Program-made: the position numbers and the translations under genes | Source of the DNA: Macrococcoides canis | GTDB lineage: Bacteria > Bacillota > Bacilli > Staphylococcales > Staphylococcaceae | NCBI RefSeq assembly: GCF_002119805.1 | Contig: NZ_CP021059.1 | Coordinates: forward strand, 1,984,001 to 2,048,000 | Direction: 5' to 3' | DNA length: 64,000 nt | Shown: positions 7,541-54,512 of the stretch, piece by piece | Position numbering within the stretch: the first letter of the stretch is position 1 | Layout of the letters: each line of letters starts with the position of its first letter | Notes under the pieces: model-generated | The model's input: the letters and a program-made list of their open reading frames with translations, nothing else | Databases searched by the model: none | What the model was told of the DNA's origin: nothing

Positions 7541-7612
7541 CCTATCACCTCAAACATTCAATTCTTTTTTATATTTTAACAAATTCTTCCTATATTAAGC
7601 TATAACTTTAAC

Positions 7613-7643
7613 AAAAAAAGACCAGAACGTAATGTTCTGATCT
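7613..7643 (-). terminator. intrinsic terminator of the tRNA-like gene
   Basis: 10-bp stem with one mismatch (7619-7628 / 7634-7643), then a U7 run on the minus strand. It begins only 7 nt after the tRNA-like 3' end. Confidence 0.88.
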
Positions 7644-7650
7644 CGGTATA

Positions 7651-7741
7651 CGGAGGGAGAAGGATTTGAACCAACGCAAGCTATAAAGCTTCTAACTGAT
7701 ATAAATATCAGTCCCCTTAAACCAGGCTTGGGTATCCCTCC
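7651..7741 (-). tRNA. tRNA-Ser-like RNA gene with abnormal anticodon loop (possible pseudo-tRNA)
   Basis: 91 nt. Acceptor GGAGGGA pairs fully with TCCCTCC and the discriminator is G. The D-arm has CCC/GGG with the GG of the D-loop, and a long variable arm (AAGC/GCTT) gives a class II, serine-type body. The anticodon stem ACTGA/TCAGT closes an 8-nt loop, TATTTATA, instead of 7 nt. The T-stem GTTGG/CCTTC has two T-T mismatches, though the loop TTCAAAT is normal. No CCA is encoded. It is either a decayed tRNA-Ser or a tRNA-like RNA kept for another purpose; a full promoter and terminator argue that it is transcribed. Confidence 0.75.
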
Positions 7742-7761
7742 AAAATTTCAACTATTTTTAT

Positions 7762-7790
7762 ATTATATTATAAATACACAAAGAATGCAA
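7762..7790 (-). promoter_or_regulatory. SigA-type promoter of the tRNA-like gene
   Basis: On the minus strand TTGCAT (7785-7790), a 17-bp spacer and TATAAT (7762-7767). The tRNA-like 5' end is about 20 bp downstream of the -10. Confidence 0.75.
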
Positions 7791-38902: not shown

Positions 38903-39028
38903 TTTTGTTAACAACTTGTGTACAAGTACGTATGTTCGTATTTTTTCAAACAATATATTTTATATGGATTAATTTATAATAACGAGGGTATAGAATGCAT
39001 ATATTAATTTATGATAAGGAGTTTATAT

Positions 39029-39133
39029 ATGAACAGATTTCCTCGTGGATGTATGGGAAGCATCATCATTTCGATTATACTTTCTGTATTGTTAACGATT
39101 TTATTAAATGGTTGTGCGATAATAATGCAATAA
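39029..39133 (+). CDS. 34-residue membrane or lipopeptide precursor
   Basis: ATG after ATAAGGAG. It reads MNRFPRGCMGSIIISIILSV, then LLTILLNGCAIIMQ. A short basic N-terminus and one hydrophobic helix end in LNGC, which resembles a lipobox and would leave the hexapeptide CAIIMQ. It may be a tiny lipoprotein, a membrane peptide or a peptide-signal precursor. It follows the DnaA-box cluster and precedes a terminator. Not recognised. Confidence 0.6.
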   Translation: MNRFPRGCMGSIIISIILSVLLTILLNGCAIIMQ

Positions 39134-53369: not shown

Positions 53370-54512
53370 TTATTTCATAAGTTCGTTATACACTTCTACA
53401 TCATCTCCGATATAGTAACGTTTCGGTAACCTACGACTTAAAGAAGTGAGTACTTCATAAGTAATAGTTCCAAGTTGCTGTGCAACTCGCTCTAACGACT
53501 GGTTACTATCTGCGTTATCATCAATAATGATACATTGCGCACCTAACTGGGTATCTTCTGGTACGCGTGCCATCATCTGATCCATACATACACGACCGAT
53601 AATCGGAACTTCATTACCTTCTAAATTTATATTGTAACCTTGCATCGCACGAGGCAGACCATCAGCATATCCAATCGGGAATGTTGCAACTACTTCATCA
53701 CCTTGTGCAGTGTAAGTAGCGCCATAGCTCACGGTATCACCCGCCTTAATTTGCTTAATGAAACAAGCAGTAGATACGAGTTGGGCTGCTGGCTGCAGTT
53801 TCACATTACTAATGGCTCTAATAAATTCAGACGGATAATAACCATAAAGACTGATTCCTAATCTTACAGCATTACATTCTGAACAGTCGTAACGCATTGT
53901 TGCTGCACTGTTCTGACAATGGATATATTGAGGTTTATTGTCAGAAATGATTCCGAGAAACTTAGTATACGCTTGTTCAGTAAGTGCATTCTCCTCATCT
54001 GCAGAGCTAAAATGTGTATACACACCTTCTAGGATAAATTGTTCAACCGCATTCACTTTATCTACAGCGGCATCATATGCCTGCTTCGTCTGCACACCGA
54101 TTCTACCCATTCCGCTGTCCACTTTTATGTGCAGCCAGACAGGCTTATCTTCCTCCTCAATATAACAGCTCGCCTCTTCGATCCACAACGCATCTGGTGC
54201 AGTAAGTGCTAATCGATGTCTGGAAGCCTGTCTGATGTGCTTCGGTTCTATTACGCCAAGCACTAAAATCTTTGCTTTAATACCATGCATGCGCAGTTCT
54301 ATCGCTTCATCCAGTGTCGCAACAGCAAAGAACTCCGTACCTGATGCCATCAAATGCTTCGCAATATTTACTGAACCTAATCCGTAACCATTTGCTTTAA
54401 TTACTGCAATTACGGTCTTATTTGGATGCAATTTTTCTATTTGTTTAAAATTATTGCGAATTGCATCCAGATTGACGTTTACAAATGTCGGACGATAATA
54501 CCTATCACTCAT
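53370..54512 (-). CDS. alr: alanine racemase
   Basis: 380 residues. PLP lysine Lys39 in VIAVIKANGYGLG; LGISLYGYYPS and the second catalytic Tyr in VSYGATYTA. It makes D-alanine for peptidoglycan, which MurF and Ddl use downstream in the pathway. Lies between acpS and mazE as in staphylococci. Confidence 0.96.
   Translation of the reverse strand: MSDRYYRPTFVNVNLDAIRNNFKQIEKLHPNKTVIAVIKANGYGLGSVNIAKHLMASGTEFFAVATLDEAIELRMHGIKAKILVLGVIEPKHIRQASRHRLALTAPDALWIEEASCYIEEEDKPVWLHIKVDSGMGRIGVQTKQAYDAAVDKVNAVEQFILEGVYTHFSSADEENALTEQAYTKFLGIISDNKPQYIHCQNSAATMRYDCSECNAVRLGISLYGYYPSEFIRAISNVKLQPAAQLVSTACFIKQIKAGDTVSYGATYTAQGDEVVATFPIGYADGLPRAMQGYNINLEGNEVPIIGRVCMDQMMARVPEDTQLGAQCIIIDDNADSNQSLERVAQQLGTITYEVLTSLSRRLPKRYYIGDDVEVYNELMK

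Follow-up and report, generated by a model that had tools for sequence, protein, structure and literature searches.

A tRNA-Ser-like RNA family without an anticodon loop, a probable seryl donor for cell-wall synthesis in Staphylococcaceae

Results

A single-copy tRNA-Ser-like gene in Macrococcoides canis

We analyzed a 64,000-nucleotide (nt) stretch of the Macrococcoides canis genome (contig NZ_CP021059.1, positions 1,984,001 to 2,048,000; hereafter the window, in whose numbering features are given), which carries a 91-nt gene for a tRNA-Ser-like RNA on its minus strand (7651..7741). A preliminary description of this DNA had singled out the gene for an odd anticodon loop on an otherwise intact tRNA frame, and most of that anatomy holds. 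The acceptor stem (GGAGGGA/TCCCTCC) is perfect, with 7/7 positions paired and the discriminator G73 at 7651; the D stem is a CCC/GGG helix of 3 base pairs (bp) with GG in the D loop; and a long variable arm of the serine type (AAGCT-TTAT-AGCTT, 5 bp) lies at 7677..7690. The T arm (GTTGG-TTCAAAT-CCTTC, 7658..7674, ± 1–2 bases) has a normal loop and, as reported earlier, two T-T mismatches in its stem, i.e., U·U at 50-64 and 51-63. CCA is not encoded, unlike in the two tRNA-Ser(UGA) genes of the genome. The anticodon arm required a different reading: it had been described as ACTGA-TATTTATA-TCAGT with the 8 nt of TATTTATA as the loop, and while these letters are correct, the first two bases pair with the last two (T-A, A-T), yielding a 7-bp hairpin with a UUUA tetraloop (ACTGATA-TTTA-TATCAGT, 7694..7711, minus strand).

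The gene is an orphan in the sense first proposed, i.e., a single copy located outside tRNA clusters. ARAGORN labeled it “tRNA-???”, and in a whole-genome search the Rfam tRNA model scored it at 34.5 bits, above the 29-bit cut-off, with each of the 57 other matches above cut-off scoring higher; in an Rfam scan of the window at the gathering threshold, it was not among the listed matches. Its predicted fold had a z-score of −2.86. An intrinsic terminator on the same strand (GAGATCAGAAC-ATTAC-GTTCTGGTCTT-TTTTT, 7613..7644) begins 6–7 nt past the RNA, in agreement with the preliminary description, and its 11 pairs followed by T5 (7644–7618) represent 1 such site found against 0.1 expected; a terminator follows the RNA in M. 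caseolyticum as well. The sigma-70-type promoter-like site proposed upstream, TTGCAT (7790–7785)-N17-TATAAT (7767–7762), is also present on the minus strand (7762..7790), 20 nt from the RNA, but as a lone match it is at chance level (3/6 at −35; p ~0.4), and it was unlisted in the scan that yielded the terminator. Its placement is nonetheless kept: most homologues have a −35/−10 pair with a 17-nt spacer 16–20 nt from the RNA (TTGAAA-N17-TATAAT in M. caseolyticum).

Conservation and distribution of the RNA

Next, we evaluated the conservation of the RNA across genomes. The RNA of the window genome shares 97.8% identity with that of M. caseolyticum, compared to 70–73% in the flanks; the two substitutions amount to the change of a single T-A pair to C-G, and the only other difference is one D-loop insertion. 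Using a covariance model (R3) that separates the family (≥85 bits) from normal tRNA-Ser (≤81 bits), we identified the RNA in 33 of the 108 Staphylococcaceae genomes and, outside this family, in one genome from another family of the same order (G124, apparently Aliicoccus). When 399 genomes from across the class were sampled, all matches fell within Staphylococcaceae. Named carriers include S. hominis, S. caprae, S. simulans, S. cohnii, S. simiae, S. pasteuri, S. massiliensis (two copies), Aliicoccus persicus, and M. caseolyticum, as well as S. epidermidis 1FSE05, where an MFS transporter gene and gehC flank the copy. The RNA is also present on 22 plasmid records, and a search for a phage origin returned no match among 50,697 phage records. 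Weak blastn matches at 70–74% (L092–L098) were normal tRNA-Ser(UGA) genes with encoded CCA and were not counted.

Several copies stand in settings of their own. The S. epidermidis 1FSE05 copy (L184:3501-3590), which an IS110 element (ISSep2) adjoins, and the S. caprae and S. pasteuri copies (L104, L117) lie beside similar MFS transporter genes with no adjoining FemAB. In Enterococcus devriesei (NZ_JXKM01000023.1, L121), the RNA and a FemAB gene share a 10.9-kb contig with a plasmid-relaxase-like open reading frame (ORF) nearby; this contig is nearly identical to S. aureus pMRSA_24 and to S. epidermidis plasmids, which could represent either transfer outside Staphylococcaceae or contamination. 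A divergent or decaying gene (54.8 bits with R3; L091:1781-1867) lies 70 nt upstream of a third-branch FemAB gene (see below) in a sister-genus genome (G012).

The anticodon arm retains a helix without a decoding loop

Covariation was examined in an alignment of 33 distinct homologue sequences. Overall, the whole structure scored 0.339, compared to 0.132 when shuffled (0/500) and ≤0.065 for slid structures. Within the anticodon stem, two-sided changes occurred in 7/7 pairs and 98.2% of cells were paired, even though this arm is the most variable nucleotide sequence of the RNA: it comprises 6–8 bp with a predicted loop of 3–7 nt, mostly UUUA, UUCG, or UUUU, and the tip differs between species (UUUA, UUCG, UUUU, UUUAU, and others). 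The helix is preserved while its sequence is free, and the RNA is under selection.

These patterns bear directly on whether the gene is a decayed tRNA-Ser, perhaps left behind by the integration of a mobile element. The odd anticodon arm, the mismatched T stem, the absence of an encoded CCA, and the frequent location on plasmids or near insertion sequence (IS) elements would all fit such a pseudogene, and a few copies do look decayed, namely L091 and the G079 copy, which has an acceptor mismatch. However, 33 distinct sequences from several genera keep every other feature and share identical mismatches throughout; three stems (acceptor, D, and anticodon) and the outermost long-arm pair show compensatory changes; and the RNA is far better conserved than its flanks. 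Acceptor and long-arm structure is kept across the homologues, where the earlier proposal had been that a pseudogene would show loss of pairing. The covariation and the contrast in identity between RNA and flanks refute decay for the family as a whole, so that the recent wreck envisaged in the preliminary description is contradicted, whereas its argument that this is no plain pseudogene, and that an odd loop on an intact frame needs explaining, is borne out. We consider decay highly improbable.

The same alignment addresses a second early suggestion, i.e., a tRNA with an altered anticodon that reads stops or shifts frame. The window copy, with TTTA in its loop, would suit this, but the short loop of variable sequence on a 6–8-bp stem does not: a 7-nt loop on a 5-bp stem was found in 0/33 distinct homologues, and a 7-nt loop with U33 on such a stem was not seen. 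Since the anticodon arm ends in a tetraloop on a lengthened stem, with a sequence changing freely between species, this suggestion is contradicted, and T-stem mismatches would in addition weaken delivery by EF-Tu; a decoding function is scarcely credible. The RNA keeps the 7-bp acceptor stem, G73, long variable arm, and D- and T-loop motifs of an elongator tRNA-Ser but lacks its 5-bp anticodon stem, 7-nt loop, U33, and serine anticodon, and because the anticodon loop is gone, no decoding is possible.

Two T-stem pairs are replaced throughout the family

Positions 50-64 and 51-63 of the T stem were U·U, unpaired, in 33/33 homologues, while the T stems of the genome’s normal tRNA-Ser genes are paired; the fully paired T stem of an elongator tRNA-Ser is absent from the family. 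In S. aureus tRNA-Gly, EF-Tu affinity is set by T-stem pairs 49-65 and 51-63 (PMC4052509), and in tRNA-Sec, 49-65 and 50-64 matter for this affinity (PMC9976931). Given the U·U at 50-64 and 51-63, weak EF-Tu binding of the tRNA-Ser-like RNA is a reasonable inference by analogy. Judged from its sequence, the family would combine the conserved features of a chargeable tRNA with two features barring it from translation, weak EF-Tu pairs and the inability to decode.

Linkage to FemAB transferase and lytic enzyme genes

On chromosomes, a FemAB gene lies ≤800 bp from the RNA, usually at ~100 bp, in 14 of 35 copies, compared to 0.18 expected (P ~2e-23 assuming independent copies, a value that overstates their independence because linked copies are partly related by descent). 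The 14 include one S. massiliensis copy (L103). On plasmids, a FemAB gene was found ≤2 kb from the RNA in 13 of the 15 records (of 22) whose neighbors were examined. Even so, different FemABs are involved in this linkage, which is seen both on chromosomes and on several plasmid types. In G068, the adjoining FemAB gene (L063:1690-2825) is split into two overlapping ORFs, probably by a frameshift.

Since NCBIfam failed to separate Lif/Epr from FemA/B, we used trees to assign FemAB classes. One branch (the third branch), apart from FemA, FemB, and FemX (support 100/99), brought together Lif, Epr, the window genome’s fourth FemAB, and the FemABs adjoining the RNA, and a tree with wider sampling confirmed this Lif/Epr branch (support 100/100). 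Proteins of this type act on the cell wall: Lif uses seryl-tRNA to place serine in interpeptide bridges (PMC11396672), and FmhA and FmhC are cited as adding serine (in PMC11394868).

Some linked copies are accompanied by wall-cutting enzymes. On the lysostaphin plasmid pACK1 (NC_013944.2), the RNA lies at 54392–54486 (L129:23392-23486), 205 nt after lss and with lif beyond lss, and on pML7057-1 its neighbors are a metalloendopeptidase gene on one side and epr on the other. A second pACK1 copy (39010–39101; L122:8001-8092) is near an IS6 transposase gene with no adjoining FemAB. We also observed a repeated small cassette of a CHAP-domain protein, a FemAB aminoacyltransferase, and the RNA on M. 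sciuri, S. epidermidis, and S. warneri plasmids (L123, L126, L187, L191), which looks like a further bacteriolysin-immunity module. Several plasmid records have locus-tag gaps at the position of the RNA, e.g., PYH56_RS12265 is missing between RS12260 and RS12270. This suggests that the NCBI pipeline annotates an RNA gene at such loci, and for this reason we do not claim the gene as unannotated.

The window genome encodes an unlinked candidate partner

In the window genome, the RNA has a GNAT-like gene and a lipoprotein-like ORF as neighbors, and a search for a FemAB partner in cis found none within the window. The genome’s third-branch FemAB, its fourth (G000:C1:219807-221018), is unlinked to the RNA, and no tRNA was found beside it: the genetic link to a peptidoglycan aminoacyltransferase holds for the family, while in this genome the two genes are apart. 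This enzyme is the most likely partner. A fourth FemAB is present in all three RNA-carrying Macrococcus genomes, and three Macrococcus genomes have neither RNA nor fourth FemAB (G007 has one further weak FemAB match). Across Staphylococcaceae, the RNA was found in 0 of 11 genomes with only three FemABs and in 33 of the remaining 97 (Fisher P 0.017). In G001 and G006, two Macrococcus genomes that lack the RNA, a different cassette with an XRE-type regulator lies beside the GNAT gene (L009:2020-3504, L007:1-1480).

Discussion

A proposed dedicated seryl carrier for the cell wall

Taken together, we consider it likely that this RNA is a dedicated, non-proteinogenic tRNA-Ser for peptidoglycan synthesis and a donor to FemABs of the Lif/Epr/Fmh type. 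Once transcribed, the RNA would have its 3′ end completed by the CCA-adding enzyme and would be charged with serine by seryl-tRNA synthetase (SerRS), which would recognize the long arm, G73, and the acceptor stem and not the anticodon; serine identity is known to be independent of the anticodon (PMC9976931). The missing anticodon loop would exclude the RNA from decoding on the ribosome and the two U·U would make it a poor ligand of EF-Tu, so that the charged RNA would be left free for FemAB-type enzymes, of which those of the Lif/Epr/Fmh branch would transfer serine from it into the interpeptide bridge. The M. caseolyticus wall, of the Lys-Gly3-Ser type, speaks for this function; in M. goetzii and M. 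bohemicus the type is Gly1-2 (PMC6008420). In some cases, a wall-cutting enzyme against which this serine protects would be encoded alongside, as in the lysostaphin–lif–tRNA arrangement on pACK1.

Two other functions outside translation were weighed. As a tRNA-like regulatory RNA, i.e., a base-pairing small RNA, a decoy, or a sensor of serine or SerRS state, it would control wall genes in cis or in trans without donating serine. There is precedent in Bacillus cereus tRNA-Other, a tRNA-like element in a regulatory RNA whose deletion alters wall morphology (PMC3399842), and FemAB linkage fits a regulator too. However, the 3′ end of the RNA is followed at once by its own terminator, with no long conserved RNA in the flanks; conservation falls on the elements of a chargeable L-shaped tRNA, namely the acceptor, G73, the long arm, and the D and T loops; the exposed loop is unconserved; and a T-box would require an anticodon. 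The preliminary description was right to list regulation as a possibility, but it is not the best reading: because linkage to FemAB serine transferases is repeated, we rank an amino-acid carrier for the wall above it and regard regulation as unlikely. The RNA could otherwise donate serine to a different tRNA-dependent enzyme, e.g., in lipid aminoacylation or a peptide or antibiotic pathway, with FemAB linkage a by-product. Several enzyme classes outside translation use tRNA-dependent amino-acid transfer (PMC4052509), but FemAB recurs in unrelated contexts and on plasmids, and no other enzyme family was seen recurring as widely, so that such a donor seems very unlikely.

Besides the shared descent of some linked copies, several observations weigh against a wall-specific seryl carrier. 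The flanks read for Macrococcus and for the group resembling S. hominis, S. caprae, and S. epidermidis contained no FemAB gene. The Lif/Epr branch also includes FemABs of genomes without the RNA, and because the fourth FemAB occurs without the RNA in three Macrococcus genomes (G001, G003, G005), this enzyme has no strict need of the RNA; serine incorporation without a tRNA-Ser-like RNA is possible. Published wall types are mixed and not wholly in step with the proposed function: the close relative M. psychrotolerans is listed with Lys-Gly3-4 and no serine (PMC12016501), and the published type of M. epidermidis is Gly3-Ser. All points considered, we infer that this is probably a natural family of anticodon-less tRNA-Ser, with a covarying tetraloop hairpin and two fixed U·U, that serves as a private seryl donor for transferases of the Lif/Epr type and is mobile in a cassette with a wall-lytic enzyme and an immunity transferase.

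If so, bacteria would have a route for reserving seryl-tRNA for the wall in which the anticodon loop is given up and mismatches are fixed in the EF-Tu-binding region of the T stem, and lysostaphin immunity would consist of an enzyme together with its own tRNA, one copy of which is on the lysostaphin plasmid itself. The RNA would further provide a natural tRNA-Ser scaffold kept off the ribosome and, possibly, a genomic marker of serine-containing bridges, which affect lysostaphin susceptibility. The tRNA-dependent serine incorporation that was studied in S. epidermidis in 1968 may also find its gene here: Petit, Strominger, and Söll reportedly described such incorporation into bridges, although the sameness of the two tRNAs is a lead only. 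We found no account in the literature of the tRNA-Ser-like RNA as a family or of its function; key older papers (Petit 1968; Thumm and Goetz 1997; Sugai 1997; Ehlert 2000) may mention a nearby tRNA gene.

Comparison with known systems

Among expressed odd tRNAs that act outside translation, B. cereus tRNA-Other, the precedent first offered, is a loose analogy. Its deletion affects the wall and drug resistance, but it keeps a Trp anticodon, is poorly charged, is part of longer RNAs, and flanks a pathogenicity island (PMC3399842), with no FemAB link reported; the tRNA-Ser-like RNA is not an element within a longer conserved RNA, with a terminator ~7 nt downstream and unconserved flanks, and has no anticodon for a T-box to read. 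Another known system is tRNA-Sec, which is charged by SerRS and rejects EF-Tu via core pairs 7-66, 49-65, and 50-64 (PMC9976931), yet keeps its anticodon and has SelB, whereas the RNA described here is without an anticodon. On the enzyme side, Lif, Epr, FmhA, and FmhC are FemAB serine transferases known to place serine in bridges, and their genes flank the RNA or share the branch of those that do; these are proteins, however, and the literature examined does not describe a private tRNA matched to them. For the bridge serine system of S. epidermidis, the link is the copy of the RNA in strain 1FSE05.

The nearest precedent is the set of non-proteinogenic tRNA-Gly of S. aureus, donors for FemXAB, which are likewise tRNA genes reserved for the bridge with weakened EF-Tu T-stem pairs, there at 49-65 and 51-63 (PMC4052509). 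The two differ in the amino acid, serine here and glycine there; in G18G19, kept here and replaced in the tRNA-Gly; in the anticodon loop, which is gone here; and in the gene being linked to, and mobile with, its transferase here. That tRNAs are set aside for wall synthesis is already known from this tRNA-Gly set. What sets this RNA apart is the use of serine, the full loss of the anticodon loop under selection that preserves the helix, the fixed double U·U, and a tRNA gene that travels with a bacteriolysin and its immunity transferase.
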